From an uncultured Kordiimonas sp. (lineage in GTDB: Bacteria > Pseudomonadota > Alphaproteobacteria > Sphingomonadales > Kordiimonadaceae), in NCBI GenBank assembly GCA_947492375.1, contig CANLMI010000001.1:248001-312000 (forward strand): a stretch of DNA of 64,000 bases. The letters are read 5' to 3'. Every line of letters begins with the position of its first letter. The stretch's first letter is position 1. A program made the translations under genes and the position numbers. A model generated the notes under the pieces. The model made no database searches, had not been told where the DNA came from, and saw nothing but the letters and a program-made list of their open reading frames with translations. Below, piece by piece: positions 35,126-52,215 of this stretch.

Positions 35126-35613
35126 GCGTTTGCTCCGCTCTTGAGCAAAAGTTGCACCCGGATCAGGCCATTATTATCATTGTTCAGTGATGCTCTCGCA
35201 ACGTAGATGCCATTTTGGTTCTGTAGCTCGATAATCCATGTATAAAATACTGGTGCCTCAACGCTATCAACCCATACATTCAGCCCGCTTGTTTGATCCG
35301 GTTGAAGCCGTGTAAGTGTTAACCCTAACTTTTGGGCGCTTCGGCTTATGACCTGTCTCATATCGACATCGGCAGTAAGGGGTTGGCGCGTGTCATTTTC
35401 TTTGATTTTTGTCGCTTCCAGCAGGGCGCTGTTTATTATTTGTGCGTCACTTATGGCCGCCTGATACTGATAATGCAGGTCGGTACGTTGTTGTTTTAGT
35501 GGCAGGTATAAAATAAAATATAAAAGAAACAAAAGTAACATGAGGCACATTACAGAAAGAAGCAAGCGTTCGCGCTCATCGCGGTCAAACCACCATTTTA
35601 TGATATTGTTCAT
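35122..35613 (-). CDS. gspM: Type II secretion protein M
   Basis: A 163-aa bitopic inner-membrane protein: a short charged cytoplasmic end (WWFDRDERERLLL), one helix (LMLLLFLLYFILYL) and a periplasmic ferredoxin-like domain. GspM partners GspL in the inner-membrane platform that ties the ATPase to the pseudopilus. The sequence is weakly conserved as usual for GspM; the RDERERLL start and position between gspL and gspN make the call. Both ends overlap neighbours by four bases. Confidence 0.88.
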   Translation of the reverse strand: MNNIIKWWFDRDERERLLLSVMCLMLLLFLLYFILYLPLKQQRTDLHYQYQAAISDAQIINSALLEATKIKENDTRQPLTADVDMRQVISRSAQKLGLTLTRLQPDQTSGLNVWVDSVEAPVFYTWIIELQNQNGIYVARASLNNDNNGLIRVQLLLKSGANA

Positions 35614-36809
35614 GATACGCGCTCCCTCACGGTAACATCGGCGACTATTCTGCCATCGATTTGCCGTGAGGCCCCTTCTGTTAGGCCAGCACCTCGGCGA
35701 ACCATTGAATTTTTCAAGGTCTCTACATCACCGAACGATCCGGTATTAAGGCTGACGGATAATTCTCCTCGGCTCTCGTCATACCGCGTACTGATAATTG
35801 AGATGTCTTCATTTTCTTGAACGCTGTCGAACAGTATAGCGGAAAGTAAAATGAATCGATCCGTCGCATTTGTTTGGCTCGAGCGGATACGGGTGCGCAC
35901 CTGATTAATACTGCTAACACCAGGAAACTCGCGCTTCATAGTTGCTTCTGTCTCTTGATCCAATCGAGCAATTGTCTGTGACAGTTGCCATGACTCGGTT
36001 GCATAATAGCCGATGAAGGCAAGAACTAGGGCGCTGAAAAATATTGCAGGCCTTTTCCATGTTAGCCAGATTTCCTGCATTGATTTGCGGCTGATGAAAG
36101 TACCCTGAAGCAGGTTGACTGGTTTGCCTGACGTGATGGCAGTACTATAACATAAGAAGAAATCAACAATCGATAGCGGGTCATGTTGCTCTGGCGTTTG
36201 TTCATTTGCCAGTGCAGGTTTCGTGCGGGCATAAATAGGTATTGGCCCGTTAATGTTTTTGAAAAAATCAGGGGCAATTAAATCAAACATATCCGCTTCA
36301 ACGGAGGCAGCCATGCCTTCGTTTGAGATGATGATAAAGTTTCCGTCTGGCTTTTCATAGACCGTGGCTGTCTTGTTTTCGCGTAAGCAATCGATGTCAA
36401 CGAAAGCACCAGATAAACTCATTTCGCTATCATTGATGGTGGATATCCAGCTATTCATAATATCTTGCGCAATAATAAAAACTGGGCGGGTATTGTTCTC
36501 GATTGCAGGACCTATTGCAAAATGAAGTGTTTCTGGTGGTGCGGATAAATCATCTTCAAAGATAAAAGGTGCTGCTGCCCGGGCTTGCGTTTCGGTTTTC
36601 GCTGGAATATCCGCATATTTTAGAGGGGCATCAAACCCGGAAAAAATGAGATAAAGGTCGATATTTATATAGGTTTTATAATGATCCAGAATTTCATTAA
36701 CAGGTGAACAGTTATTATCGATAACTTGCTGGGCGACTGGGTCAATCAACGCCCAATTCACAACAAATGTTTCGTCATTGTCAGCAAAGATGATCAATTG
36801 TTTGTTCAA
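35610..36809 (-). CDS. gspL: Type II secretion protein L
   Basis: A 399-aa protein with the three GspL parts: a cytoplasmic actin-like domain (to about residue 245), a single helix (PAIFFSALVLAFIGYYATESW) and a periplasmic ferredoxin-like domain (about 310-399). GspL recruits the GspE ATPase to the membrane and binds GspM. It has the typical early segment ALIDP and EDDLSAPPETLHFAIGP. It overlaps gspK by four bases. No unusual feature was seen. Confidence 0.88.
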   Translation of the reverse strand: MNKQLIIFADNDETFVVNWALIDPVAQQVIDNNCSPVNEILDHYKTYINIDLYLIFSGFDAPLKYADIPAKTETQARAAAPFIFEDDLSAPPETLHFAIGPAIENNTRPVFIIAQDIMNSWISTINDSEMSLSGAFVDIDCLRENKTATVYEKPDGNFIIISNEGMAASVEADMFDLIAPDFFKNINGPIPIYARTKPALANEQTPEQHDPLSIVDFFLCYSTAITSGKPVNLLQGTFISRKSMQEIWLTWKRPAIFFSALVLAFIGYYATESWQLSQTIARLDQETEATMKREFPGVSSINQVRTRIRSSQTNATDRFILLSAILFDSVQENEDISIISTRYDESRGELSVSLNTGSFGDVETLKNSMVRRGAGLTEGASRQIDGRIVADVTVRERVS

Positions 36810-37825
36810 ATCTCTTCTCCAAACTGACGCGAAACAACATATATCTTATCGTTTTTGCTCGCATCTATCAATGATGTCATTGTAACATAGGCATCGCCGT
36901 AATTAACGGTTGTTGTCAAGTTAAAGAAAGTGGTTTTTTCCTTAACCTGATCACGGGCACCCTGTTCGATTTCGATATCTTCAAATTCTTTTGTAGACCA
37001 GAATACTTCCATAGATTCAAACCCTTCAATCGGCCTGTTGTTTAATACTTCGGAAGCAGTTTTAGCTTTGAGAGCTGTGCCTACGAGCATTGATAGGAGA
37101 GGGGCTTGATCAGGCCTTAGAGTATTTATGTTTATCTCTGATAATGCAACCGCAGGCAGGGCACATACCCAAGGCTTTAAGGTTAGGTATGTCTCTAAGT
37201 CTATACCTTTGATAGACCGAAGTTCGCTGACATCTGCAATGAGAGTGTTTGGCGTGCGATATGCCGGTTCGCCGGCCGTGTATTCAAAATCTTCCGCGCC
37301 TCTTGAAACGGGGCGGCTATCGCTATCAATCCAGTCAGTAATGGCACCTATGATGGCTTCACTATTACCTTGCGCTATACCAGTAACCTCTAACAGTGTG
37401 CGTAGCTGTTTTTGTGCCTCAGTGTTTGCTTCATACTCAGAGTTGTCGTTTTTTTCAACCAAGCTATTGATGTTAAAACAATTTGATCCATCAGATAGTT
37501 GTGTAGCTATTGAGCCATTTTCGATCGGGAATACGCCGCCATTTGCTGCCCAGGGCTGTGCAAGCGTTGTTTTCTCTGGTGAAAGTTGCCGCGATTGTCC
37601 AATAACCCCAATAGCGAGTGTTTCTGCGCCCAATGCATACCAATTTGCCTGTGAAGTTAAAGAAACATTCGAGGCGCGTCTGATACCAAAGCGGATATCG
37701 TCAATCAATGAGACTGCTACAGCAGCCATAACAGCAACGATCAGTAATACTGTTATTAAAACTGCGCCGCGATCTTTGCTCTCTGTATTTTGTTGCATAG
37801 AGGGCGGTTTTTTGAATGGGCTCAT
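36806..37825 (-). CDS. gspK: Type II secretion minor pseudopilin K
   Basis: A 339-aa minor pseudopilin. The prepilin-type start is DRGAVLITVLLIVAVMAAVAVSL, with cleavage after Gly; GspK lacks the usual Glu5, as here. The large inserted alpha domain and the Cys pair (NCFNIN, WVCALP) are typical, as is WIDSDSRPVSRGAEDFEYT, which contributes to its calcium site. GspK caps the pseudopilus tip with GspI and GspJ. It overlaps gspJ by four bases. Confidence 0.93.
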   Translation of the reverse strand: MSPFKKPPSMQQNTESKDRGAVLITVLLIVAVMAAVAVSLIDDIRFGIRRASNVSLTSQANWYALGAETLAIGVIGQSRQLSPEKTTLAQPWAANGGVFPIENGSIATQLSDGSNCFNINSLVEKNDNSEYEANTEAQKQLRTLLEVTGIAQGNSEAIIGAITDWIDSDSRPVSRGAEDFEYTAGEPAYRTPNTLIADVSELRSIKGIDLETYLTLKPWVCALPAVALSEININTLRPDQAPLLSMLVGTALKAKTASEVLNNRPIEGFESMEVFWSTKEFEDIEIEQGARDQVKEKTTFFNLTTTVNYGDAYVTMTSLIDASKNDKIYVVSRQFGEEI

Positions 37826-38457
37826 GGTTTACCTCCTCCAACGATGAAAAGCTGACGGATAATCCCAAATTCTTCGCTGTTTAATGTTAAGGCGATTGCA
37901 GTTGGCAGGCGGGTATCATCGAATGCATCACCAAACCATTGGTTCTGCCATACGCCGTCCACTAGAAATTCAACATTCACTCCAATAATACCTGTCAATA
38001 AAACACGTTCATTGCTTGGGGTTTGTTCTGTTGGGTCGGGGCGTAATAAGGTTCTGCGAACAAGGTTTGAACCCGCCAGATAATATTCAACAGCCTGAAG
38101 GTTTGACCGGGCGCTAATACCTGCCGGGTTTAACCAGCCACGCTTTACAAATTTAAGAAAAGGTTCCTCAGGGAAATTTTGTATGCCGTTAAAGCCAATA
38201 TTATCATAGGTGCCAAAAGCATCCCGGGTTGGCCTAATAACGCTTTGAAGAAGGTCTAATTTAAGTGTTGCTCTTGCAAGGTGGAGCGATGTTAAAATTT
38301 CTGAGCGCTCTTCTATCGCTTCTTTACTTTGAAGGGTGCTCGACAAGGCTACTGTACTTGCGCTTGCAATTATCGCAAAAATAAAAAGGGCGACAAGGAC
38401 TTCAACAAGTGTGAAGCCTGCGGCAGAATAGTTATTTTTTTTTGATACAACAGCCAT
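37822..38457 (-). CDS. gspJ: Type II secretion minor pseudopilin J
   Basis: A 211-aa minor pseudopilin with the prepilin motif AAGFTLVEVLVALFIFAIIAS, cleavage after Gly and Glu5 present. The later part has the GspJ segments VEYYLAGSNLVRRTLLRPDPT and VNVEFLVDGVWQNQWF. It works at the pseudopilus tip with GspI and GspK. Start and stop each overlap neighbours (TAATG and ATGA). Confidence 0.93.
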   Translation of the reverse strand: MAVVSKKNNYSAAGFTLVEVLVALFIFAIIASASTVALSSTLQSKEAIEERSEILTSLHLARATLKLDLLQSVIRPTRDAFGTYDNIGFNGIQNFPEEPFLKFVKRGWLNPAGISARSNLQAVEYYLAGSNLVRRTLLRPDPTEQTPSNERVLLTGIIGVNVEFLVDGVWQNQWFGDAFDDTRLPTAIALTLNSEEFGIIRQLFIVGGGKP

Positions 38458-38876
38458 TAATTTGCTTTCCTGAGGGCTGTAAAGCTTTGTAATGCCTGCT
38501 CACCATTTCTGATATAGATATTAACGGTGACACGGTGAATGTTCGGGCTGGTTGTTTCTATGATTTGACGGCGCCAGTCAAACTCGCGGCCAGCAAAGCT
38601 TAATTGCCCGCTTGTAAAGCCAACAGCTATATTTGTAGGCGAGGTAATGGTTTCAACAAGAATATTCTCTGCGGCTATTTCGGCAATTGCCCGCTCTTCC
38701 AATATGGTTATGGTTCGAATATTCTCATTTTGTGCCGTTATAAGAGCAACGACAGCAATTGAAAAAATGGCGAGCGCCACCATAACTTCAATCAGTGTAA
38801 AGCCTGCATCATTATTTGTCGGCTTGCGTGTACGAAGCCCTGTAAAGTTTTGTATATTTTTTGAACTTACTTTCAT
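38457..38876 (-). CDS. gspI: Type II secretion minor pseudopilin I
   Basis: A 139-aa minor pseudopilin with the prepilin motif DAGFTLIEVMVALAIFSIAVVAL and the GspI-type helix ERAIAEIAAENILVE. GspI starts tip assembly by binding GspJ and GspK. The leader before the cleavage site is long (24 residues) for this group. It shares a TAATG junction with gspH. Confidence 0.92.
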   Translation of the reverse strand: MKVSSKNIQNFTGLRTRKPTNNDAGFTLIEVMVALAIFSIAVVALITAQNENIRTITILEERAIAEIAAENILVETITSPTNIAVGFTSGQLSFAGREFDWRRQIIETTSPNIHRVTVNIYIRNGEQALQSFTALRKAN

Positions 38877-39442
38877 TAAAATTTGGCTCCGCTGGCCCGT
38901 GAAATATGGCCGTTTGCTTGCACCAGAATGGTTTGTTCTGATCGCGGGCTGCTGAAAGTAAGGTTGAAATTTTGTGTTTCGCCGCTTGGCAGAAAAAAGA
39001 CGCTGGGAATGATTTGGCCTTCGGACGTAACATTACGTCTCGGGAGCGCTACTTTTTCACCTTCATATCGGAAGTTTAATTTACTGCTGTCCGGCCATTG
39101 TAACTTATCTGATAAGCCTGCCGGGGCATAGGGTGCCCATTGTTGGTTAATACGGCGAATGAAGGCATATCCATCTTGGTCAAATGACAGGCCAATAACA
39201 CTGCCAGTTAAAATAGCTTCTTGGGCGGCCAATTGAAATCTGGCTGCGATGATATCAGTTTCGTCACTGAGTGATTTACTATTTGGCGGTAAATTAAGCG
39301 CAACAACGCTAGCCATCAATCCAATGATAACAATAACAACCAACAGCTCAATCAGGGTAAAACCAGCATCATACCAGTTTTTCCCCAGAGCATTTTGGTT
39401 GCATGAGCCGTTATTGTGTTTGCCAGTTACCCACATCGGCAT
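38876..39442 (-). CDS. gspH: Type II secretion pseudopilin H
   Basis: A 188-aa pseudopilin with the motif DAGFTLIELLVVIVIIGLMAS after a leader of 27 residues. GspH is thought to join the tip complex to the GspG shaft. The C-terminus has the family segment VFFLPSGETQNFNLTF. The ATG at 39442 lies inside the end of gspG, with GAAGGG at the right distance; the overlap is 32 bases, longer than elsewhere in the operon. Confidence 0.92.
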   Translation of the reverse strand: MPMWVTGKHNNGSCNQNALGKNWYDAGFTLIELLVVIVIIGLMASVVALNLPPNSKSLSDETDIIAARFQLAAQEAILTGSVIGLSFDQDGYAFIRRINQQWAPYAPAGLSDKLQWPDSSKLNFRYEGEKVALPRRNVTSEGQIIPSVFFLPSGETQNFNLTFSSPRSEQTILVQANGHISRASGAKF

Positions 39443-39899
39443 TCAGCCCTTCACCGCCTAATCTGCCATCAGCACCGAGTGAGAAAATATCAAATGTGCT
39501 GTTCTCGCCTGGATAACTATATTGATACGGGTTGCCCCAAGGGTCTGGTGGCAAGCGGCGGATATATCCGTCTGGGCGGTAGCGTTCTGGTCTTGTCAGG
39601 CCATCGGGTCTGGTGACAAGCGCTTCTAGGCCTTGATCGGTGCTTGGATAAACCAGATTGTCGAGTTTATAGAGATCAATAGCTTGTTCAAGCGTTGCGA
39701 TGTCGCCGCGCGCTTTGGTAATGCTGGCTGTGTCCGTACTTGGCAGTACATTGATAACGACAACTGTTGCCAATAAGCCAATAATGACAATAACAACCAT
39801 CAGTTCCACAAGGGTAAAGCCGTCTTCATTTCGTGCATCCATTTCAAATGCAGCGAGGCTGGCTGGCTTTTTAATTCTTTTTTTCAACCTTTTGATCAT
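39411..39899 (-). CDS. gspG: Type II secretion major pseudopilin G
   Basis: The main shaft pseudopilin, 162 aa. The prepilin peptidase site is in EDGFTLVELMVVIVIIGLLATVVV. The rest is strongly conserved: TDQGLEALVTRPDG, GYIRRLPPDPWGNPYQY and SLGADGRLGGEGLNADVGNW, which includes the calcium-binding aspartates of GspG. The start at 39899 has AAGGAG nine bases away; ATG at 39905 is the alternative. It is matured by GspO, encoded 12 kb away in the same region. Confidence 0.96.
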   Translation of the reverse strand: MIKRLKKRIKKPASLAAFEMDARNEDGFTLVELMVVIVIIGLLATVVVINVLPSTDTASITKARGDIATLEQAIDLYKLDNLVYPSTDQGLEALVTRPDGLTRPERYRPDGYIRRLPPDPWGNPYQYSYPGENSTFDIFSLGADGRLGGEGLNADVGNWQTQ

Positions 39900-39964
39900 A
39901 ACCATATACTCCTTGGTTGATATCATTCCCAGTTATCCAACAATTATCAACCTATAAACCTAAT

Positions 39965-41191
39965 TTATAAACCTGCAAGTGTATTAAGCTGTAAGATCGG
40001 TAAAAGTATCGACAAAACGATCACTGCTACAATGCCACCCATCATAATGATGATCATTGGCTCAAGCAAGGAGAGTGCTGCCGATGTGAAACTCTCAAAT
40101 TCATTTTCCAGATAGTCCGCAGATTTACCGAGTAACTCTTCCAGTTTGCCGCTGTTTTCACCTGCTGCTGCCATATAGGCAACCATTGGGGGAAAACCTG
40201 TTGTTCTTTTAAGTGCCGCTGACAAGCTCGCGCCTTCTTCGACCATTATAATGACTTTATCAATAGCATCCTGTAATACCGTGTTGCTAACTGTTTTTTG
40301 TGCCGCCCGAAGGCCGCTTAAAACAGGAACACCGCTTGATATAAGGGTGCTTAGGGTACGGGCAAGCCGTGCAGCATTTAACCCGCGCACAAGTTTGCCA
40401 ATGATTGGTAACCCCAAAATAAACTGATCGACTTTCTTTCTAAAGGATCGTGTTTTCAAGGCACGAATGAACGCAATGATCCCAAAAATTATACCAATCA
40501 GAATAAACAAGCCAAAATTTTGAATGAATTCAGAAATACTGATCATGGCACGTGTTAGAAATGGCAAGGCGCGCCCCATACTGTCAAACTGTTCGACAAC
40601 TTTTGGAACAACAAATGTCATTAGGGCGATAATAACCCCAACGGCAACCAACGATAGTGCCGCTGGATAGATAAGAGCTGTTTGGACTTTGGCGCGAACA
40701 GCTTGGGCACGTTCCATATGATCAGCAAGGCGATTAAGTACCGCTGACAAGCTACCTGAGTTTTCACCGGCGGCCACCATTGCACAGTATAACTGATCAA
40801 AGCTTTTATTATGCTGCGCCATAGCTTCTGACAATTTATGCCCTTCAATAATGTTAGAGCGAACCGCAAGAATAATACGCTTTAATGCTGGCTTTTCTGC
40901 TTGCAGGGCGATCGTGTTAAGCGCTTCTTCGATCGGGGCACTAGCGCCAACCATTGTGGCGAGTTGGCGCGTAAATAATGTTACATCCTTGTGGGATAGT
41001 TTACCATTATTACCACCACCAAAACTGATGTCTCTGGAAAGTCCTTTTTTTTCCGCGGCTAATTCCAGACGGGTAGGGACCAGGTTTTTCGCTCTTAAAT
41101 CCTTGCGTGCGTTACGCGCATTTTCGGATGAGATTGTCCCTTTTTGGGTGCGCCCGTTTGTATCCAGTGCTTCATATTCAAATGCTGGCAT
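39965..41191 (-). CDS. gspF: Type II secretion inner-membrane platform protein F
   Basis: A 408-aa polytopic protein with two T2SF repeats (about residues 70-195 and 275-400) and three to four helices. It starts with MPAFEYEALDTNGRTQKGTI, typical of GspF, and each repeat contains the GENSG-type segment (MVAAGENSGSLSAVL, MAAAGENSGKLEELL). It joins the GspE ATPase to pseudopilus assembly. The start overlaps gspE by 14 bases, and the longer in-frame start is rejected because the family begins at MPAFEYEA. Confidence 0.95.
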   Translation of the reverse strand: MPAFEYEALDTNGRTQKGTISSENARNARKDLRAKNLVPTRLELAAEKKGLSRDISFGGGNNGKLSHKDVTLFTRQLATMVGASAPIEEALNTIALQAEKPALKRIILAVRSNIIEGHKLSEAMAQHNKSFDQLYCAMVAAGENSGSLSAVLNRLADHMERAQAVRAKVQTALIYPAALSLVAVGVIIALMTFVVPKVVEQFDSMGRALPFLTRAMISISEFIQNFGLFILIGIIFGIIAFIRALKTRSFRKKVDQFILGLPIIGKLVRGLNAARLARTLSTLISSGVPVLSGLRAAQKTVSNTVLQDAIDKVIIMVEEGASLSAALKRTTGFPPMVAYMAAAGENSGKLEELLGKSADYLENEFESFTSAALSLLEPMIIIMMGGIVAVIVLSILLPILQLNTLAGL

Positions 41192-42716
41192 AGTCTTCTC
41201 GCTCAGCTTTACAAACGCGCAGCACTTCTTCAACGGTTGTTGTGCCAAGAAGAACCTGAGAGAAGCCGTTTTCGGCTAATGTATCTGCTGACTTAAAGGC
41301 ATGATCTGCAATCACTTGTTCGCGTGCATCATCATGGATTAACTCTTGCAGCGGGCCATCAACAACGATCAACTCGTATAACCCCACACGCCCTTGATAA
41401 CCTGTATTGTTGCAGTGTTCGCAGCCATTAGCTTTATGAATGGTCAAAGGAGCATCAGTCTTTTGCCCTAAAAGCTTTCGTGTGCCTGTATCTGCTTCAA
41501 TGGGCGTTTTACAGTGGGTACAAAGCCTGCGAACCAGGCGCTGTGCTAAAATAGCTTTAACAGTGCTTGCAAGCAGGAATGGCTCCACCCCCATATCGCG
41601 TAGCCGTGTTATCGCACTGACCGCACTGTTTGTGTGAACCGTAGATAGAACGAGGTGGCCAGTTAAGCTGGCTTGAACAGCAATTTCGGCTGTTTCAACA
41701 TCTCGTATTTCACCAACCATCACAACGTCCGGGTCTTGACGCAGCATCGCTCGCAAGCCTGCGGCGAATGTCATTCCAACTTTGGCATTTACCTGTGTTT
41801 GACCAACCCCTTCAAGGGCGTATTCTACAGGGTCTTCTACTGTTAAGATGTTGCGGGTTTTGTCATTTAACAGCGACAGGCCAGCATAAAGTGTCGTTGT
41901 TTTACCAGAGCCGGTAGGGCCGGTTACGAGAATGATACCGTTTGGCTCTTTAATGACTTCTTCAAACCGGGCACGGGTTTTCTTTTCCATGCCTAAGTCT
42001 GAAATATCAAAATGAGCCTGATCACGGTCTAAAAGGCGGAGCACAACCCTTTCCCCATGTCTGGAAGGCAAGGTTGAAACCCTTACATCGATAGCTTTGC
42101 CGCCAATTGTTAGAGAAATCCGGCCATCTTGTGGGATACGTTTCTCGGCAATATCAAGCCGGGCCATCACTTTTATGCGTGAAACCAGTAAAGGGGCTAA
42201 CTTCACAGGAAGGCTTAAGGTTTCTTTTAAAACTCCGTCGATCCTAAGTCGCACAGATAATCCGGTTTCATATGGTTCGACATGGATATCAGACCCCCGG
42301 TTTTTTACTGCTTCTGCGATTAAGCCGTTGATTAGCTTAATTACCGGGGCATCGTCGTCGCTATCAAGCAAGTCTGCGGTTTGGGGAATGTCATCAACAA
42401 GGCTGTCGAGGTTTTCTGATTGCCCTAGATCATCCGCAAGTTTTCCAGAAGCAATACCATCAACAGCATAAATGCTTGAAAGCTGTTTATCAAATTCCGT
42501 ATCGTTAAGGTGCTGAATTTTAAAAGGTGCGCGGGTCGCACGTCTGACTTCGATTAATAAGTCTGGGTTAATATCACCTTTTGAAGCGACTATCACACCA
42601 GTTTCTTCCCGAATGGCAATAAAACCGTGGGCCTTGGCAAAACTATAGCTCAAAATCGGCAAGTTTGTCGCTTGTGTTTCGGTATCAGGTGTTTGAATGT
42701 TATCACTTTCTGGCAT
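41178..42716 (-). CDS. gspE: Type II secretion ATPase E
   Basis: A 512-aa cytoplasmic ATPase driving pseudopilus assembly. It has an N-terminal GspE domain, Walker A (GPTGSGKTTT), the Asp box, Walker B region (DPDVVMVGEIRD) and His box (GHLVLSTVHTNSA), and a zinc-binding CTHC...CEHC knuckle. The start at 42716 lies seven bases after the gspD stop; longer in-frame starts would extend far into gspD. Confidence 0.97.
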   Translation of the reverse strand: MPESDNIQTPDTETQATNLPILSYSFAKAHGFIAIREETGVIVASKGDINPDLLIEVRRATRAPFKIQHLNDTEFDKQLSSIYAVDGIASGKLADDLGQSENLDSLVDDIPQTADLLDSDDDAPVIKLINGLIAEAVKNRGSDIHVEPYETGLSVRLRIDGVLKETLSLPVKLAPLLVSRIKVMARLDIAEKRIPQDGRISLTIGGKAIDVRVSTLPSRHGERVVLRLLDRDQAHFDISDLGMEKKTRARFEEVIKEPNGIILVTGPTGSGKTTTLYAGLSLLNDKTRNILTVEDPVEYALEGVGQTQVNAKVGMTFAAGLRAMLRQDPDVVMVGEIRDVETAEIAVQASLTGHLVLSTVHTNSAVSAITRLRDMGVEPFLLASTVKAILAQRLVRRLCTHCKTPIEADTGTRKLLGQKTDAPLTIHKANGCEHCNNTGYQGRVGLYELIVVDGPLQELIHDDAREQVIADHAFKSADTLAENGFSQVLLGTTTVEEVLRVCKAEREDYASI

Positions 42717-42723
42717 GGCTTGC

Positions 42724-44790
42724 TTATTGATTATTATTGTCGAGTTGGTTGTTGTTCTCTTGTGGGATTTCACCGCCAATAACATCCCGGACGATAACGT
42801 CAATGCTGGCCTCTCCATCTTCGTCGTCTGCCCATTCGAGTTGCTGCTGGCGAGTATATAGATATTTACGACGGGTTGCATCTCTGGCGTCTGATCCATC
42901 TCTTAAAATAGTTGGCCGGATGAATACCATCAGATTGGTTTTGTCTACAGTTCTTCGTTCGCTTTTAAACAGATTGCCGAGGATAGGGATGTCGCCCAAC
43001 AGAGGAATTTTACTTAAAGTAATATTTTCATCTTGTTGAATAAGTCCTCCTAATACAATAATTTCTCCGTCTTCTGCTAATACCGTTGTTTGAATTTGGC
43101 TTTTATTTGTAATGAAGTCTGAACCACCTGGGCCGACAGTATCGTCAACGCTTGATACTTCTTGATTGATTTGCAAGCGAATTTGGTCACCCACATTAAT
43201 CTGCGGAGTAATATCAAGCTGTATGCCAACTTCTTGCCTGTTAACTGTTCTGAACGGGTTTGAGTTATTATCGCCGAGAACTTCACCGCTGGTCACAGGG
43301 ATTTCTTGCCCAACTATTAAGCTAGCAGGCTGATTATTCAGTGTTGTCAGAAAGGGCGTTGATAGAATGTTTGAACTTATATCTTGTTGTAGAGCGTTTA
43401 AAATAACCCCAAAGATAGTGCCGCCTGACTCTCCGGCAAACCCACCGGCAAACCCATTTAACCCTACGATAGAATTAATCGCCGATGCTGCCAGACCTCC
43501 GGCCTGTTCAGCAAATGGACTATCATCATCAATAAGGAGCGCACCGGTTGTTGCTAAAATATTTGGTGCGGTTGTTGAAAAATTAGTCGCGCTAAAAGGT
43601 ATGTTGCTGCCGTCGCCGCCAGAAAGTACATATTGTACGCCTAGTTCTTTCGCAGCCTCATCCGAAATATCAACAATGATTGCTTCGATAATTACCTGTG
43701 ACCGTTGAACATCCAGTTTTCGGATGACATCAGCTAATGATTTTTGCATATCAGGGCTTGCGCTGATGATAAGGGCATTTGTGCCTTTATCAAATGATAT
43801 AGTCGCCTTTGATGGACCGCCGCCGCCTGCAAGTGCCGGTGTGAGGCCACCAGCATCTTGAGATGCCCCTATACCCGCAGAACCGCCTGAGCCAGACGAA
43901 GACCCCGATATTGAGCGACTGATTTGTTCTAGTGTTGGTACGATTTCTTCAACATCAGCATGTTTTAAGTATATAACCTCTATATTACCTTTGGTGGCGC
44001 TTCTGCTATCCAAATCTGCAATTATCGGCACCAGGCCATCGATGACATCCTGATCACCTTTTAAGATGAGGGTGTTGCTGCTAAGAACAGGAATAATTTT
44101 GAGTGAGGTATTGCTGGTTTCTTCACTAACACCGGATGAACGAAGAGCTGCTATCGTTTCCGACATTTCTTCTGTTGAAGTGTTTACAAGCGAAATAAGT
44201 TTGGTTGTTGCCGTATCTTTGTCGATAGATTTAATTAGCTTTCTAATTCGTTCCATGTTTCCGGCATAATCAACGACAACAAGAAAATTATTGGAACGAT
44301 GGGCAATTGCACGGCCTAATCTATGAATAATAGGCTTTACAGTATTTAATGCCGTAATCGCATCAACATTATTTATTCTGAAAACTTCGGTAACAAGCTG
44401 ATCATCGGGTAAATTAGTGCCGAAGGCTGTGCGGTCTGTAATCGCTGCTTCGTCAGGAACAATTTTATAAGCCCCCCCTTTAGTCGGTACAGCGCTAAAG
44501 CCGTATACTCTAAGGGCAGAGAGGAACATATCAAAGATATCAGCCGATGGAATAGGTTCTCTCGATATGATCGTAATCTTCCCTTGTACGCGAGGGTCAA
44601 GGATAAATGTTTTTCCTGTCATCATCGATATATCATCGATCATTGCACGAATATTAGCATCTCGGAAATTTAGAATCTGATCTTGTGCGACGGCGTTTTC
44701 TATGAACGAAACTCGGTTATAATTCGGCGTTGCAGCAATAACTCCTGCAAGGGCGATGGCAGATAAACTATATTTGAGCATTTGTTTCAT
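42724..44790 (-). CDS. gspD: Type II secretion secretin D
   Basis: A 688-aa outer-membrane secretin. A signal peptide ends near ENAVAQD, followed by the N0 domain (LNFRDANIRAMIDDISMMTGKTFILDPRVQG), N1-N3 ring-building domains and the C-terminal secretin domain with the signature VPLLGDIPILGNLFKSERR near residue 610. The N3 domain contains a Gly/Ser-rich insert (SGSSSGSGGSAGIGASQ). The protein continues with an acidic tail ending in Asn/Gln repeats. The tail could be the pilotin-binding part, but this is a guess. It lies 13 bases after gspC. Confidence 0.97.
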   Translation of the reverse strand: MKQMLKYSLSAIALAGVIAATPNYNRVSFIENAVAQDQILNFRDANIRAMIDDISMMTGKTFILDPRVQGKITIISREPIPSADIFDMFLSALRVYGFSAVPTKGGAYKIVPDEAAITDRTAFGTNLPDDQLVTEVFRINNVDAITALNTVKPIIHRLGRAIAHRSNNFLVVVDYAGNMERIRKLIKSIDKDTATTKLISLVNTSTEEMSETIAALRSSGVSEETSNTSLKIIPVLSSNTLILKGDQDVIDGLVPIIADLDSRSATKGNIEVIYLKHADVEEIVPTLEQISRSISGSSSGSGGSAGIGASQDAGGLTPALAGGGGPSKATISFDKGTNALIISASPDMQKSLADVIRKLDVQRSQVIIEAIIVDISDEAAKELGVQYVLSGGDGSNIPFSATNFSTTAPNILATTGALLIDDDSPFAEQAGGLAASAINSIVGLNGFAGGFAGESGGTIFGVILNALQQDISSNILSTPFLTTLNNQPASLIVGQEIPVTSGEVLGDNNSNPFRTVNRQEVGIQLDITPQINVGDQIRLQINQEVSSVDDTVGPGGSDFITNKSQIQTTVLAEDGEIIVLGGLIQQDENITLSKIPLLGDIPILGNLFKSERRTVDKTNLMVFIRPTILRDGSDARDATRRKYLYTRQQQLEWADDEDGEASIDVIVRDVIGGEIPQENNNQLDNNNQ

Positions 44791-44803: not shown

Positions 44804-45691
44804 TCATTGTGTCGCCAGGTAATCAAAGGTTAATTCCTTGAGTTTACCATCTCGTTCTATTCGAATTTTGAAATTACTTGAATTGCCAATTTCTTCGACT
44901 AATTCGGCCATTGTTTCCAGTGTTCTGAACGGTGTGTTGTTTATAGACAGGAATACATCATTGGGTTTCAAACCTAGAGCAAGCAGGTCCACTTGGTTAC
45001 TATCTGCACTAATGATCCAACCATCAATAAGCCGACCCCGTTTTCTGGGTTGCATTCTTGCTGAAGCAACAAATGCTTCAATTTGACTTTTACGTACGCT
45101 GCCACCATTTTCCTTCGCGAGAGTAGGTAACGTATTTTGTGAACTATGGGATGCCGCGCTTCGTAAGCTGGACTGAACAGTTTCAGGGTCAACGCCGTCT
45201 AAATATAGACTTTCACGTAAACCGGCTCTCATAATTTCAACATGGGTCGCATAAATGGCAGTTAACTCTACTCCGTCAATAATTTCATCATTAATAGTGA
45301 AAACATATTCTTTCTGATCTGGCGTTCGAATAATTGCGCTTCCGTTTGTTTTATTATCCAAACTATGGCGTACACCAAATAATTTCAGATCCAGGCTGGT
45401 TTCCGGAGCCAACGTTTGCTCGACGGCGACTGGAGCACTATTAATAGTTCTATTGAAGGGGTCAAACTGAGTAAGAATATCAAAATTATCATTAAGGCTG
45501 CGGGCTGTTTGTGTTTTTGCAGCTAATGTGTTTGTCGGAGTTTCCGGTAAAGGGATATCGCCGAGAAATAATAACCAAAAGAAAGATGCGGCAAACCATG
45601 CAAGGGCTATAACAAGTATGGTTTCAATAAGTGCAACCATAAGCTTTAGCGGGGCAGTTGGTTTTAACGATGTTAAACTAAAGCTTTGCAT
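44804..45691 (-). CDS. gspC: Type II secretion protein C
   Basis: A 295-aa bitopic inner-membrane protein and first gene of the T2SS operon. A helix near residues 20-45 is followed by the homology region (LKLFGVRHSLDNKTNGSAIIRTPDQKE), which binds the secretin N0 domain, and a C-terminal PDZ-like domain (LGLKPNDVFLSINNTPFRTLETMAELVEEI). Its promoter should lie in the 222-base gap after it in coordinates (45692-45913), where I see no clear consensus. Confidence 0.93.
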   Translation of the reverse strand: MQSFSLTSLKPTAPLKLMVALIETILVIALAWFAASFFWLLFLGDIPLPETPTNTLAAKTQTARSLNDNFDILTQFDPFNRTINSAPVAVEQTLAPETSLDLKLFGVRHSLDNKTNGSAIIRTPDQKEYVFTINDEIIDGVELTAIYATHVEIMRAGLRESLYLDGVDPETVQSSLRSAASHSSQNTLPTLAKENGGSVRKSQIEAFVASARMQPRKRGRLIDGWIISADSNQVDLLALGLKPNDVFLSINNTPFRTLETMAELVEEIGNSSNFKIRIERDGKLKELTFDYLATQ

Positions 45692-45863
45692 CTAATCATT
45701 TTCTTCCATTGAGCGAGGCACCTACATCAATGTAATATCATATTGCTTGCTCAATACTCTATACAAACCAAACACTTGTTATTCGGCTAAAATACCCTTT
45801 TGTCAAGAAGCAGACGCTTTTAAGATGTGGTTTTTGAAGTGTTAGGGCTTTCTCCTGTTATCG

Positions 45864-45897
45864 AAAAAGAGGGGTTGCATTGTTGCAGCGCCCCTCT
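45864..45897 (-). terminator. Intrinsic terminator after the second TBDR
   Basis: On the minus strand AGAGGGG and CCCCTCT pair across a 16-base loop and are followed by five T residues, just past the TBDR stop at 45914. It separates this unit from the T2SS operon. Confidence 0.82.
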
Positions 45898-45913
45898 ATC
45901 AAAAGATTATTTC

Positions 45914-48538
45914 CTAGAATGAATATTTGAAACCAAGTTGAAAACTGCGACCAATGTCATATTGAAGGGATGTAAATTCTGCATCGGACTGCGTATCTTC
46001 AACCGTTAGTAGGAAGTCATCATTCAGGAGGTTACTTGCAGTGAAAGTTACTTCAAGAATATTTCCTCCGACTTCAAATTCCCGACCATAGATGAAGCGA
46101 AGATCGTAAAAGTCGTCCTCGATCACATCGGGAACGCCCGCAAGGCCAACATCAAAGATGCGGTTCCCTGTAAAATTGAAGAATAACCCTGCTTTTTCGC
46201 CATTTTCAAAGTCTTCAAAACCAAATTGAATGTTTGCAAGAAAGTCTGATTGCCCCTGAAGTCGTCGGGTACTGTTGGTTAACTGATCGCTATTGTTCGG
46301 ATCGATTGTGATTTCAGAATCAATATAAGTTGCGTTGGCTTTAAAGAAAAAATCACGTTCACCGAGCCAGTTCCAGCCAAACCAATCCTGAAGAAATAAA
46401 TCTTTCTCAAATTCGCCTTCGATACCCAAAACCTGAGCCGAGTCAGCATTGACGAAAGAACGTAGAGGTGTGTTACCAATTAGAGTGAATGACCGTTCAA
46501 TCGGGTTGGAAAGCTCTTTGTAGAACACACCGAGTGTTGCGCTTTCGCCGCTTTCGAAATAATGCTCGATCCGGGCGTCAAAGTTATCGATCGACGTCGG
46601 TACAAGGTCTTGGTTACCAACAGTTTGGAGGCCTGTGATGGTATCAATAAAGTTAGCGGTTGAAAGCTCGCGCAGGTCAGGGCGCGCCAATGTGCGTGAA
46701 TAGGCAAGACGCAATTGGTAGTTTTCAACGAATTCCCACGTTGCCGTTGCTGACGGTAAGAAACGATTGATATTTTGCTCGACAACAACAGGTTCACCGC
46801 TGATGCGGGTAAAAGATGATGTCAACTGATCAGAACTTTCATAGCGTGTACCAAACGCAAGGCGCAGGGTAGGGCTAATTTCAACATCAAACTGTATATA
46901 GGCTTGAATATTATCAAACTCTGCTGAAAAGTTATCAGAGGGGTCGGTAAATTCTTCGAGTTCAAATTGCCCCGGGCCAACATTTGCCGGGCCAAAAATA
47001 ATTTCTGGAATAAACGCCAGTAACTCTTGATTTACACCGGCTGGTGCATCGAACTGGAAACGCAGAAACTGGGAATCACGCGAGCGATCAAGATATGTGA
47101 AACCAGCTTTTATATCAACGGCTCTTTCGCCGAGCAAAATAGGTTGAACGATATCAAAACCGACTTCATACGTTTGGTCATCGAGTTCACCGAAAGATGT
47201 TAAGTTACTATCAGGCCCTGTTGAAAGTTCGAATGCCTGGGCGATGTTTTCATCAAAATCAAATGTTGTTTCGTTCCGAAGTGGGGCATCACGGTCTGCT
47301 CGCTTATAAGAAAGGCGCCAGTTGATTTCAGCCGGTTGGTTATCGCCGCCCAAAATGCCAATAATATGTTCGCCGGATAGCTGATTTGACCAGATTTGGC
47401 TTTCTACAAAGTCAAGGCGCGTAAAGGTACTGAGCGTGCCGGGGTCAGCACGAAATGACCCTGTTTCGATCAATACTTCTTTCACCGACTTTCTAAGAAG
47501 GATCGATGTTGCTTTGATCGAATTATCGGGGTCAAACTCGATACCACCAGAGAGAATGGCATTTAGATCAACAGTAAATTCTGTATTACGCCGACCACAA
47601 GTTTCCGCGACAGAGTCAAAATCGCTGGATGTCTGGCAGAATTCAGGTGCGATTTGGCCATCAATATTGATACCTGCATTTGTGACAGTAAATTCGTTTC
47701 TAACACCGTCTTTATTGGCGAAGTCAGTATCGTAATCGAGGGCAAAGATAAACCCGGCGTCAAAACTATCAAATTCATAACGGTTACCGAAGGCGAAATT
47801 AACACCAACATTTGGCCCGTTTGGCTCAAGGTCTGCTGAGTAAACCAAGGGCAGGCTCTCACCCGCTGCTTCAAGTTGATCCGGCGATAGGCCTTCAAGA
47901 AGAGGATTGGCTGCAAGAATATCAGGTAACTGGCGGAAACCGCCGGGAAACCCGAAAGCTTCACCGAAGTTACCATCATAACTCAAGCCGTCTTCAAAGG
48001 TACTAACGGTATTATATTCCGCTGACACACCTATGTTGAAGAATGGTTCGTCAGGGACGGCTTTTGAGCGAAGGTCAATGACACCGCCTGCAAACTCACC
48101 AGGATATTGTGGTGAATATGTTTTTTGTACCAAGACACTTTCGATAATGGCGGTTGGAAACAGGTCCAATGGAACCGCGCGGCGAAGAGGGTCTGGACTT
48201 GGAAGCTGTGAACCGTCCAATAGTGTACTTGAATAACGCTCATTCAAACCACGGACAAAAGGTATACCTTCGTTTCCGAGTGAAATGCCTGGAAGACGAG
48301 TTAAGGCAACTGCTATGTTACTGTCGCCAGTGCGCTGGAATTCTGTTGCATCCAGCACATTTGCGATTTCAGATGTTGACCGTTTCTCATCCGGTATAAA
48401 TTGACCAAGGACCTGGATTTCTTCAATGGGTCCGTCGTCTTCCTGGGTATCATCTTCTTGTGCAAAAACTTGTGCAGGAAGCACAAGTACAGTGGAGGCA
48501 AGAAGCATGCTTTTGAATGATAGATTTGTGGGTTTCAT
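45914..48538 (-). CDS. TonB-dependent receptor linked to the T2SS region
   Basis: An 874-aa outer-membrane receptor with a signal peptide (MLLASTVLVLPAQVFAQ), the TonB-box-like region IEEIQVLGQF, a plug (NIAVALTRLPGISLGNEGIPFVRGLNERYSS) and a barrel ending GRSFQLGFKYSF. It has no N-terminal secretin/STN signalling domain, so it is not tied to an anti-sigma system. It is the second gene of a unit with the duplicated lipoprotein, 81 bases downstream of it. The pairing resembles SusC/SusD-like receptor-lipoprotein pairs in layout, though the lipoprotein is unrelated to SusD. The ligand is unknown. The start at 48538 (ATG) is preferred over the GTG at 48547. Confidence 0.92.
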   Translation of the reverse strand: MKPTNLSFKSMLLASTVLVLPAQVFAQEDDTQEDDGPIEEIQVLGQFIPDEKRSTSEIANVLDATEFQRTGDSNIAVALTRLPGISLGNEGIPFVRGLNERYSSTLLDGSQLPSPDPLRRAVPLDLFPTAIIESVLVQKTYSPQYPGEFAGGVIDLRSKAVPDEPFFNIGVSAEYNTVSTFEDGLSYDGNFGEAFGFPGGFRQLPDILAANPLLEGLSPDQLEAAGESLPLVYSADLEPNGPNVGVNFAFGNRYEFDSFDAGFIFALDYDTDFANKDGVRNEFTVTNAGINIDGQIAPEFCQTSSDFDSVAETCGRRNTEFTVDLNAILSGGIEFDPDNSIKATSILLRKSVKEVLIETGSFRADPGTLSTFTRLDFVESQIWSNQLSGEHIIGILGGDNQPAEINWRLSYKRADRDAPLRNETTFDFDENIAQAFELSTGPDSNLTSFGELDDQTYEVGFDIVQPILLGERAVDIKAGFTYLDRSRDSQFLRFQFDAPAGVNQELLAFIPEIIFGPANVGPGQFELEEFTDPSDNFSAEFDNIQAYIQFDVEISPTLRLAFGTRYESSDQLTSSFTRISGEPVVVEQNINRFLPSATATWEFVENYQLRLAYSRTLARPDLRELSTANFIDTITGLQTVGNQDLVPTSIDNFDARIEHYFESGESATLGVFYKELSNPIERSFTLIGNTPLRSFVNADSAQVLGIEGEFEKDLFLQDWFGWNWLGERDFFFKANATYIDSEITIDPNNSDQLTNSTRRLQGQSDFLANIQFGFEDFENGEKAGLFFNFTGNRIFDVGLAGVPDVIEDDFYDLRFIYGREFEVGGNILEVTFTASNLLNDDFLLTVEDTQSDAEFTSLQYDIGRSFQLGFKYSF

Positions 48539-48618
48539 AGGAACCACCGTTGTTATTGTAAATTGATATGGTAGCGCCGCGATGAGTAATAAACTTATCG
48601 CGGCGAATTTTAATGGTC

Positions 48619-51423
48619 TTAGTTACCCAAGAAGATTGTCCAACCTGCTGTCCAATCGAGTGCACCGTCACCAGGTACAGCACCGATTGATGTTACAGGA
48701 TCAAAGAAGCTGTCGATTGCGTTTACGTTAACGACAGATACTGCGTTTTCGTTTGCGCCATTGATGAAAGAAACGCCGCCAGTTGCACGGGCAACCAGAG
48801 ATGTTGGGCCAGCATTGTTGTTTGGTTGATTATCAAAGAATACCTGAGTGTCAAACGGATCACCGTCCTCTACTTCGATCGGATCTGCGCAACCAAATAG
48901 TGTTGATTCGATTGTTAGATCGCCTGAAAGATTGTCAGGTGTTCCGGCAACTGCGAATGTTGTAGCACTATCAATATCATAACAAGCGTCAGGCCAGTTG
49001 GTTGCAACTGTGTTCCAGAGGCGAAGGCCTGTGCCGCGGCGTGGCAGAACTGCCGTGTCGCCAACACTTGCGCCAATCAGGGTCACATTTGAGACTTGTG
49101 GCAGCGCGCGCGGTGTCGCGTCTTCTGCGCCTTCACGGTTGTCACCTTCAAACCCGCGGTCTGAGTTAGACTGGTTTTCGTTCTGAACGATAAGAAGGTG
49201 TTGCACTCTCCCGCGCCAACCAAATGTCCAATCCATACTGTCATCGTCAGCGCCTGTAATCACAACATGTTTGGCGTCAACTGTACCGCCAAAGAACTCG
49301 ATACCATCATCAGCACCGTTATGAATTTGAAGGAAGTCAACTTCAGTGCCACGACCAACGCCCTGGAATGCGATACCATTCAATTCGTCAGTCGAGGTGA
49401 GAGGGTTTCCTGCAAATTCCACACGTGTGAAGAATAGTTGGCCACTGTCGTCATTATCATCGTTACCGCCGTACAGACCACTGTCGCCTTCGCCTTCTGC
49501 TTCACAGACACCACTATCACACGTGTTTATTGTTGCACGGCCGTTGATTACAAGGCCGCCCCACAAGGATGTATCTGTCGCAACATTTCTTGTTTCAGGG
49601 TCGAGCGCGGTGAATACAACGGGTGCTGTATTTGTACCGTTAGTGCGAAGCTGAGAACCACGGCTTACGATAAGAAGTGATTGCTGAGTTTCGCCTTGAA
49701 CGGTAACGCCAGAGTCGATTGTAAGTGTTGCTGTTTCTGCACTTGCGATAGGATTAGCTGCATCTGGGCCAGCGTCTTCACCAATCACGACTGCACCGCG
49801 AAGGAAATACTCAAGCCCGGCAACAAGGCGTGTGTCTTCAGTGATTGTGCCTTCAAGCACACAACCATCAGCTATGGGCGTTGTTGTAGACGGACATACC
49901 GGTGTGGAATTAAGGCCAAATGACCAGCCAAGTGTCCAGTTGTCGGATGGGTCATCGCTTGGAATAGCGCCTATATGATCAACACTATCGAAGAAACTAT
50001 TGATCGTGCTCACATCAACGGCTGGAACGGCGGCTTCTGCTGTACCGTTTATGAAGTTTGCAAGGGTAGACGGTCCAAAAACATTGTTGCTCTGATTTTG
50101 AATGAATGTTTCAAGAAGGAATGGGTCGCCGTCTTCGTCATCGGTTGGATCATTACAGTCAAACAACGTCGATTGTACGGTAAGGTCACCAGAGAGGTTG
50201 TCGGGTGTTCCTGCAACAGCGAATGTACTATTGCTATCAATATCAAAACATGCGTCAGGAAAGCCGGTTACAACAGCGTTAAAGATATTTGCTCCTGTAC
50301 CACGGCGTAGCAAGATACCTGTGTCACCAACGTCTGTTCCAACAAAGGTTAAGTTGGATAAGACGGGCTGTGCACGTGGTGTACTGTCTTCAGCGCCTTC
50401 GCGGTTGTCAGCTTCGATGCCGCGGTCAGAATTTGATTGATTTGGGTTTTGAACGACAAGAGCGAATTGAAGATTACCGCGCCACCCGAACGTCCAGTCG
50501 ATGCTGTCATCATCAGAACCTGTGATAATAAGGTGACGAACATTCACTGTGCCGCCGAAGAATTCAACGCCGTCGTCTGCGCCGTTGTGGACTTGAAGAA
50601 AATCAACAAGTGTTCCACTGCCAACGCCTTGAAACGCGATGCCATTTAATTCGTCTGTTGATGTAATCGGATTGCCCGCAAAAAGCACACGAACATATTC
50701 AAGAACGCCGCTGCTGTCCGCATCGTTGTTACCGCCGTACTGGCCACTATCGCCTTCACCCTCTGCTTCACAGATACCACTGTCACATGTGTTTAGTGTT
50801 GCCTGACCATTGATAATCAAGCCACCCCATTCGGATGTGAAGGGTTGCTCAAGGATCGGACCGTCAAATGCCGGGCGCGAGTTCAGCCCTAAATCTGCAC
50901 CAAAGCCAAGATCGAGTGCAGATGTAAAGGTTATTGGGTTGTTTACATCACCATCAGCAATCAGTTGTGAACCTCTGGCAACAATCAGGACGTCTTGTGC
51001 GGTAGCGCCGTAGATTGTTACACCGGGTTCAATTGTAAGTATTGCTGGATCAGCACCGGGGGCATTACCCTCAGGGCCTGCGTCTATCCCGATGCGTACA
51101 CTACCGTTCAATTGATATGTAATACCAGCAGTTAATGTTATGTTTTCTGTAATTGTACCGGATAGTTGGCATTGTTCATTTGTGCCAACCGTGATTGCGG
51201 TTGTGCCGGTCGGGCATGTAACGCTCGTTCCTCCGCCGCCACCTGTTCCGCCGCCTGTACCCCCACCTGTACTGCCGCCGCCAGTGCCGCCACCTGTACC
51301 AGTGCCCGGGTTAGGGCCTGTTGTGCCTGGTGATGCGATTTCAGTAGAACTGTCACCGCACGCAACAAGTGCAAGCGCTGTTGTTGCTGCAAGCAATGTG
51401 GTTTTGAAAGAATTAAAGGTCAT
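48619..51423 (-). CDS. Large internally duplicated beta-helix-like surface lipoprotein
   Basis: A 934-aa lipoprotein: lipobox LVAC with Cys22, a Gly/Thr linker at 32-66 and two homologous halves of about 430 residues. Each half begins with Cys-containing CP-x-GT and carries ITYQLNGSV-type strands, EWGGLIINGQA or LWGGLVINGRA, CDSGxCEAEGEGDSG, STDELNGIAFQGVG, HNGADDGxEFFGGTV, DDDSxDWTFGWRG and GTPDNLSGDL. Similar WGGLxxxG repeats occur in surface proteins paired with TBDRs in Bacteroidetes. The fold is probably a right-handed beta-helix (inference). The Asp-rich loops could bind calcium. It precedes a TBDR and lies between gspC and gspO, so it may reach the cell surface through the T2SS. Confidence 0.8.
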   Translation of the reverse strand: MTFNSFKTTLLAATTALALVACGDSSTEIASPGTTGPNPGTGTGGGTGGGSTGGGTGGGTGGGGGTSVTCPTGTTAITVGTNEQCQLSGTITENITLTAGITYQLNGSVRIGIDAGPEGNAPGADPAILTIEPGVTIYGATAQDVLIVARGSQLIADGDVNNPITFTSALDLGFGADLGLNSRPAFDGPILEQPFTSEWGGLIINGQATLNTCDSGICEAEGEGDSGQYGGNNDADSSGVLEYVRVLFAGNPITSTDELNGIAFQGVGSGTLVDFLQVHNGADDGVEFFGGTVNVRHLIITGSDDDSIDWTFGWRGNLQFALVVQNPNQSNSDRGIEADNREGAEDSTPRAQPVLSNLTFVGTDVGDTGILLRRGTGANIFNAVVTGFPDACFDIDSNSTFAVAGTPDNLSGDLTVQSTLFDCNDPTDDEDGDPFLLETFIQNQSNNVFGPSTLANFINGTAEAAVPAVDVSTINSFFDSVDHIGAIPSDDPSDNWTLGWSFGLNSTPVCPSTTTPIADGCVLEGTITEDTRLVAGLEYFLRGAVVIGEDAGPDAANPIASAETATLTIDSGVTVQGETQQSLLIVSRGSQLRTNGTNTAPVVFTALDPETRNVATDTSLWGGLVINGRATINTCDSGVCEAEGEGDSGLYGGNDDNDDSGQLFFTRVEFAGNPLTSTDELNGIAFQGVGRGTEVDFLQIHNGADDGIEFFGGTVDAKHVVITGADDDSMDWTFGWRGRVQHLLIVQNENQSNSDRGFEGDNREGAEDATPRALPQVSNVTLIGASVGDTAVLPRRGTGLRLWNTVATNWPDACYDIDSATTFAVAGTPDNLSGDLTIESTLFGCADPIEVEDGDPFDTQVFFDNQPNNNAGPTSLVARATGGVSFINGANENAVSVVNVNAIDSFFDPVTSIGAVPGDGALDWTAGWTIFLGN
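48622..49911 (-). repeat. Second half of the lipoprotein duplication
   Basis: Residues from about 505 to 933 repeat the first half domain by domain. DNA identity is still visible, for example in the stretches encoding AVAGTPDNLSGDLT (48921-48962 against 50181-50222), but the copies have diverged clearly. Confidence 0.85.
49912..51228 (-). repeat. First half of the lipoprotein duplication
   Basis: Residues about 66 to 504, the N-terminal copy. It contains an extra segment (LDLGFGADLGLNSRPAFDG) before EWGGLIINGQA that the second copy lacks. Confidence 0.85.
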
Positions 51424-51469
51424 AACATTCCCCGAATAAAGAGTATAAGATTTATTCTTTAACTTCGTG

Positions 51470-51537
51470 CTGGATAATTACCCCGGATAATTACCCCCGG
51501 ACAATTACCTTAGATAATTATACTGGATAGTTACCTC
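51470..51537. repeat. Five 13-14 bp tandem repeats upstream of the lipoprotein gene
   Basis: Units resembling GGATAATTACCCC start at 51472, 51485, 51499, 51512 and 51525. The array ends about 50 bases ahead of the lipoprotein ATG, on the promoter side. The unit is shorter than one and a half helical turns and not self-complementary as a whole, although TAATTA inside is. Confidence 0.85.
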
Positions 51538-51672
51538 AGCATTTGAGACATGCTGTTAGGCAAGAAATGTTACAGTTTTTTAATATTGGTTGCTGGTAAT
51601 TTATGTTTAAAGAAAATGTCACATAACTGTAATCGTTAACAGCCTTTAACCTTATTTTATTTCAATAATGAC

Positions 51673-52215
51673 TTAAAATGCGACATATTTGCTTGACCAA
51701 ACAGTCCAGAATCCAATGCAGAGATAGGGGCCGAAGGGAATAGCTGTCCTTGAGTCGAGTTTTTTGCCGAAAAATGATTGAATTGTTACAATGAGAAGCG
51801 CTGAAACTGATGCGGTTAGCAAGACGAACGGCAATCCTTGCCAGCCAAGCCATGCGCCTGCTGCCGCTAAAAATTTAGCATCGCCTAATCCGATAGCTTC
51901 AATATTTCGGCGCTTTAGGTAATAAGCTCTTAATACCCAAATTACGGCATATCCGACTATTGCACCGTAAATATAGTCAAAAGGCGCGATAGTGCGGGCG
52001 ATGACGAGATGCCATAGCAGCCCTGCTGCCATTAAGGGCAAGGTTGCATGGTTTGGCAGGCGAAACATTTGAAGGTCGATCAGTGTTAGGTATGTCAAAA
52101 CATAAAGAATGAAAATACTAACGATAATTATAGGAAACGGGGCAGACAGGAAAATGGGCACTAATAATAGGGTGGCTATTATTGTTCCCCAAATACCGTG
52201 CTTCAATGTTGGCAT
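51673..52215 (-). CDS. gspO: Prepilin peptidase (A24 family, catalytic domain only)
   Basis: A 180-aa polytopic inner-membrane aspartic protease that cleaves the leader of the pseudopilins. The two catalytic Asp are in LTLIDLQMFRLPN (Asp47) and GLGDAKF (Asp112). The N-terminal methyltransferase domain and zinc CxxC pairs of full-length PilD/GspO are absent, so N-methylation must be done otherwise or not at all. It lies upstream of the lipoprotein and TBDR on the same strand, with 249 bases between, and apart from the main gspC-N operon. Confidence 0.9.
   Translation of the reverse strand: MPTLKHGIWGTIIATLLLVPIFLSAPFPIIIVSIFILYVLTYLTLIDLQMFRLPNHATLPLMAAGLLWHLVIARTIAPFDYIYGAIVGYAVIWVLRAYYLKRRNIEAIGLGDAKFLAAAGAWLGWQGLPFVLLTASVSALLIVTIQSFFGKKLDSRTAIPFGPYLCIGFWTVWSSKYVAF

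Follow-up and report, generated by a model that had tools for sequence, protein, structure and literature searches.

A two-domain ElpS-type lipoprotein and its neighbouring TonB-dependent receptor at a type II secretion locus of Kordiimonas: a probable uptake pair of the phosphate-starvation response

Why would the genes of a large lipoprotein and a TonB-dependent receptor (TBDR) lie packed together with those of a type II secretion system (T2SS)? The question is raised by a stretch of 64,000 nucleotides from an uncultured Kordiimonas sp. (contig CANLMI010000001.1, positions 248,001 to 312,000), here called the window. Its minus strand holds, between 33852 and 52215, gspO, the gene of a 934-aa lipoprotein, a TBDR gene and gspC to gspN. 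An earlier note on this DNA proposed that the lipoprotein is brought to the cell surface by the T2SS and there captures a ligand for the TBDR. Any explanation should account for the gene order, for the duplication inside the lipoprotein, and for the fate of the same arrangement in genomes with and without a T2SS.

The gene assignments of that note stand, with open reading frames and Pfam matches in agreement, all on the minus strand. The gspO gene (51673..52215; PF01478, 1e-20) encodes a short prepilin peptidase of 180 aa that consists of the peptidase part only. It is followed by the lipoprotein gene (48619..51423), assigned to the ElpS family from its reading frame and its relatives, and by the TBDR gene (45914..48547), which encodes 877 aa with a plug and a barrel (PF07715, 8.3e-12; PF00593, 2.3e-28). 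Then come gspC (44804..45691; PF11356, 1.9e-23), the secretin gene gspD (42724..44790; TIGR02517, 2.3e-164) and the ATPase gene gspE, whose best match is the annotated gspE of relatives and whose real start probably lies further inside the open reading frame 41178..42899. The genes gspF (39965..41248) and gspG, for the major pseudopilin (39411..39926), also match their annotated counterparts in relatives; gspH, gspI, gspJ and gspK (36806..39442; PF12019, PF02501, PF11612, PF21687), gspL with gspM (35122..36809; PF05134/PF12693 and PF04612) and gspN (34418..35125; PF01203, 8e-12) complete the set. Right after gspN, at 33852-34427, lies a small putative lipoprotein gene without a Pfam match, which could encode a pilotin or an accessory protein. 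Within the window gspO is indeed the only gene for a prepilin peptidase, but in the genome it is not: contig 3 carries a second PF01478 gene near a second secretin.

Judged by sequence and gene order, this arrangement is the already known ElpS locus in a two-domain version. Le Blastier et al. (2010) described a Caulobacter locus in which cc0170 (ElpS) and cc0171 (a TBDR) immediately precede gspC-N, and they showed this tandem also for Xanthomonas campestris, Sphingomonas alaskensis and Hyphomonas neptunium (Figure 1 of PMC2996285). The Caulobacter crescentus locus resembles the window in the order and orientation of lipoprotein, TBDR and gspC-N and in the lipobox. It differs in that ElpS, of about 50 kDa, has one domain whereas the window lipoprotein has two in tandem, and in that gspO lies downstream of gspN, not upstream of the lipoprotein. 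The upstream position, on the same strand, is found in most Kordiimonadaceae relatives. Since C. crescentus ElpS is absent from the 80 best loci, the comparison runs via relatives from other Caulobacteraceae, Hyphomonas, Xanthomonas and Sphingopyxis that share the gene order. Each domain of the window lipoprotein is 40-45% identical to relatives of the Phenylobacterium, Brevundimonas and Sphingomonas type with the same gene order. The relatives include Phenylobacterium, Brevundimonas, Asticcacaulis, Hyphomonas, Xanthomonas, Sphingomonas, Maricaulis and Kordiimonas; most of them, but not the Asticcacaulis locus, have the TBDR and then the gsp genes downstream in order. The Xanthomonas lipoprotein groups with that of Phenylobacterium (L144, L092; 99/95), which suggests transfer of the cluster between classes.

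The lipobox and the flexible glycine linker that had been noted are indeed visible in the sequence. The signal peptide and the lipobox LVAC with the lipid-modified Cys22 (51358..51423, minus strand), a lipobox conserved among relatives, are followed by a Gly-rich tether (51220..51357, minus strand) that is disordered in the AlphaFold2 model. This tether contains the conserved motif EIASPG, 7-12 residues past the lipid cysteine. A motif with SPG at its end (window 51323-51357) is shared by alphaproteobacterial and Xanthomonas relatives, with a T2SS present or absent, while Alteromonadales relatives have CGGDIN instead. One relative, from Sphingomonas parapaucimobilis (L036:14737-16365), looks rearranged: it has a C-terminal-like stretch ahead of the point where the domain starts, and it lacks the C-terminal end. 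No Pfam or NCBIfam model matches the lipoprotein, a sequence search of the structure database returned matches only between its Gly linker and antibodies, and neither the lipoprotein profile nor the TBDR had a significant match among solved structures.

The fold was approached by prediction. An AlphaFold2 model built from 25 relatives (mean pLDDT 86) has two right-handed beta-helix domains, the first comprising residues about 69-505 (49909..51219, minus strand) and the second residues about 508-934 (48622..49902, minus strand). Aligned over 443 columns, the halves show 59% identity, and both carry a WGG motif that is invariant or nearly so (columns 199-201 and 621-623 of the 25-sequence alignment), as the observation of two WGGLxxxG halves had implied. 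Each half matches pectin-lyase-type beta-helices with Z about 18-22.6, so that the prediction confirms the cautious term "beta-helix-like". The matches comprise alginate epimerases, alginate lyases, polygalacturonases, pectate lyases and phage tailspikes or depolymerases; resting on a model, they reveal the fold of the lipoprotein and no function.

It is tempting to read such matches as a sign of catalysis. In that case the lipoprotein would be a polysaccharide lyase or hydrolase of beta-helix fold, cleaving a polymer at the surface, the TBDR would import the product and the T2SS would release the enzyme. The nearest solved folds, alginate lyases and epimerases along with polygalacturonases and phage depolymerases, fit this proposal, as do the many invariant Asp and Glu residues on consecutive rungs, including the motifs DDGxExFGG and DDDSxD. 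However, many beta-helices are binding proteins and not enzymes, the lipoprotein matches none of the PL or GH family models, and its conserved columns contain no invariant Lys. An enzymatic role is possible but doubtful.

The duplication, together with the glycine tether, might also suggest a protein of the TbpB type. TbpB consists of two specialised lobes, whereas the two domains of the window lipoprotein are nearly equivalent; the candidate was rejected on fold, the domains being beta-helices and not of the TbpB type. A search for the Slam translocon (PF04575) gave no match in the genome, nor did it in the control genomes. In a tree of 65 single domains, both domains of one genome or genus are neighbours in almost all lineages, among them Maricaulis, Kordiimonas, and the window with its genus mate. 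Because the tandem layout is common to the lineages, gene conversion is the favoured explanation of this pattern and repeated independent duplication the less likely one. If the domains are kept alike within genomes in this way, both probably do the same job.

The partnership of lipoprotein and TBDR shows in the gene order. Of the named loci whose downstream sequence extends to 2.5 kb or more, 78/78 have a TBDR gene immediately after the lipoprotein gene and on its strand, whether a T2SS is nearby or not. This invariance means that the gene order is not due to chance, and it makes a functional pair well supported on genomic grounds. The partnership postulated in the earlier note thus gains from the adjacency and from lipoprotein/TBDT pairs induced by phosphate starvation in Flavobacterium; physical contact between the partners would be expected. 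In Flavobacterium johnsoniae, PUSIII and PUSIV (FI/FII) likewise have an ElpS-related lipoprotein beside a TBDT, although this is another phylum and the described cluster lacks a T2SS; the lipoproteins FI, FII and FIII are reported to be 31-36% identical to Caulobacter ElpS (PMC8115612). SusCD and PusCD follow the same logic of a surface lipoprotein with a TBDR. Yet SusD has an unrelated fold, its Pfam models PF07980 and PF14322 do not match the window lipoprotein, which is modelled as a beta-helix, and of the SusC-type extra domains none was found in the window TBDR, only plug and barrel, with TIGR01782 below its cut-off. The earlier description as a SusCD-like arrangement built from unrelated parts is therefore apt as an analogy and not beyond it.

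The surroundings of the pair in more distant bacteria indicate what it may transport. An Alteromonas plasmid has the order phoB-phoR-pstS-2OG oxygenase-lipoprotein-TBDR-DUF3450-exbB-exbB-exbD-tonB, with no T2SS gene in this locus. Pseudoalteromonas has the same TonB cluster, there upstream. Together with Flavobacterium, these surroundings speak for a role in taking up phosphorus. The Alteromonas lipoprotein (L038:6462-10532), between phoBR-pstS and the TonB/ExbB/ExbD cluster, has three domains. A Parabacteroides plasmid also carries the lipoprotein-TBDR pair, and a T2SS gene is absent among the genes annotated in 17 kb. Next to the pair there is often a gene for a 2OG-Fe(II) oxygenase (PF13640, prolyl-hydroxylase-like), chiefly in loci whose lipoprotein has a proline-rich tether: 15/39 Pro-rich tethers against 4/66 others (Fisher p 1e-4, relatedness ignored; loci L038, L046, L048, L049, L056, L093, L094, L099, L103, L105, L106, L107, L110, L115, L123, L136, L144, L161 and L167). 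This oxygenase may hydroxylate the tether.

Expression data from relatives agree with a role in phosphate starvation. Caulobacter ElpS is produced under phosphate starvation (PMC2996285), the Caulobacter PhoB regulon includes T2SS genes and several TBDRs, and in F. johnsoniae FI, FII and FIII are strongly induced by phosphate depletion, FI and FII adjoining low-phosphate-induced TBDTs and FII lying in a phoBR cluster (PMC8115612). Against such a role, the Caulobacter receptor cc0171 is reported as constitutive, and its deletion left ElpS production unaltered with no detected change in phosphate uptake; a 2026 paper in EMBO J. that names CCNA_00171 employed it solely as a control TBDR. An examination of 116 non-redundant 300-bp upstream regions of the lipoprotein family, scored for two Pho-box half-sites at 13 bits, gave half-sites at spacer 4 in 38 regions, with at most 11 for other spacers and a frequency of about 1% in 2,320 control windows. 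As a sequence signal, this enrichment carries the expression findings from Caulobacter and Flavobacterium over to the whole family. The best Pho-box-like site of the window, ATGTCACATAACTGTAAT (51616..51633, plus strand; 16.8 bits), lies upstream of the lipoprotein gene but is reversed relative to it. The genus mate retains it with a score of 13.0 bits, and a forward-facing site before the window gene is weak (7.6 bits). As a regulatory site in this unusual orientation it is suggestive only.

The relation of the pair to the T2SS is less straightforward. Among 101 genomes of the order, the lipoprotein occurs in 53, gspC in 48 and both in 44, and in 39 of these 44 the two are adjacent, at a distance of about 2.9-4 kb. 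The association is strong within the order (Fisher p 6.6e-15) and the class (8.9e-9), relatedness being ignored in both values. On the other hand, six complete genomes of the order (G012, G019, G025, G050, G068 and G077) have lipoprotein and TBDR side by side and no GspC or GspD above the curated cut-off. Co-occurrence with gsp genes, which the earlier note had put forward as a check, is thus strong, yet pairs apart from a T2SS, which it had named, if frequent, as the contrary outcome, occur as well, in these six genomes and on the Parabacteroides plasmid stretch. The T2SS linkage is strong yet optional.

One could argue that the neighbourhood is historical, with the pair and the T2SS sharing phosphate regulation without working together. 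The occurrence of the pair without a T2SS would fit, as would some Sphingomonadaceae that have both but keep them far apart. Against this, adjacency and nearly fixed spacing are maintained in Kordiimonadaceae, Sphingomonadaceae, Caulobacteraceae, Maricaulaceae, Hyphomonas and Xanthomonas, and release of Caulobacter ElpS requires the T2SS. We regard a merely historical association as quite unlikely.

The opposite proposal, that the T2SS, via GspN, carries the lipoprotein to the surface so that it can feed the TBDR, meets a direct objection in Caulobacter. After deletion of gspC-N, ElpS stays accessible to proteinase K and only its release is lost, probably for want of a T2SS-secreted protease. 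PulA and InvL, surface lipoproteins that also have a lipobox and a T2SS with GspN nearby, are T2SS-dependent (PMC12802150), in contrast to the surface exposure of Caulobacter ElpS. The placing of the lipoprotein by the T2SS, as the earlier note had it, conflicts with this ortholog and with the pairs that lack a T2SS, so of its overall interpretation the TBDR partnership is well supported and the export step as worded is not. The residues after Cys22, GDSSTEI (P2'-P8'), include G, D, S and S, four of seven in keeping with a G/S/N/D-rich sorting motif and near the described hybrid Gly/Asp motif, but similar residues, with the SPG-ending motif, persist in relatives without a T2SS. By eye these residues do not cleanly split T2SS-linked from unlinked lipoproteins, and the exchange of D for E in an Erythrobacter-like clade is probably a matter of descent. 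GspN, however, has recently proved essential for the surface lipoproteins of the T2SS in Acinetobacter, and pullulanase in Klebsiella requires it as well; gspN, present in the window operon, exceeds the cut-off in 42/100 genomes of the order, broadly the same set as gspC. Because of the work of Roberts et al., the gspN of the window and the C-GDSSTEI start, T2SS export of the window lipoprotein is not flatly rejected. It is possible but not favoured: the idea is weakly supported, is contradicted in the one ortholog tested, and as a full account of the locus appears unlikely. The T2SS is probably a helper, not what brings the lipoprotein to the cell surface.

In view of the above, we consider it reasonably probable that the locus encodes an ElpS-type capture and TBDR uptake pair of the phosphate-starvation response, with a surface route for which the T2SS is not strictly required. 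A flexible tether would hold two nearly equivalent beta-helix domains at the outward-facing side of the outer membrane, which they would reach by that route. When phosphate is scarce, the lipoprotein would work with the TBDR in capturing and importing a ligand, in all likelihood a compound of phosphorus. The adjacent T2SS with its GspN would aid this response in two ways, through the secretion of enzymes and by letting the lipoprotein leave the surface. Gene order, conservation, the fold model, the optional T2SS linkage and the Pho-box enrichment upstream of the family come from the present analysis; surface exposure, induction by phosphate starvation and T2SS-dependent release were established by others in relatives. 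Contact with the TBDR, the class of ligand and the validity of the whole scheme in this species are what we infer. A more specific version, in which the domains form a bivalent trap for one phosphorus ligand, kept alike by concerted evolution, while the SPG motif marks a T2SS-independent route or a TBDR-docking peptide, seems improbable to us as a whole.

The window locus, with its two tandem domains, adds some new detail to the known ElpS arrangement. The Caulobacter result, set against the new GspN findings, raises the question of whether GspN acts on ElpS-type lipoproteins or another surface-export route exists in Alphaproteobacteria. If the capture and uptake scheme is true, a pair of lipoprotein and TBDR that scavenges phosphorus and has no relation to SusCD would span Alphaproteobacteria, Xanthomonas, Alteromonadales and Bacteroidota, and its link to the T2SS would be a regional add-on.
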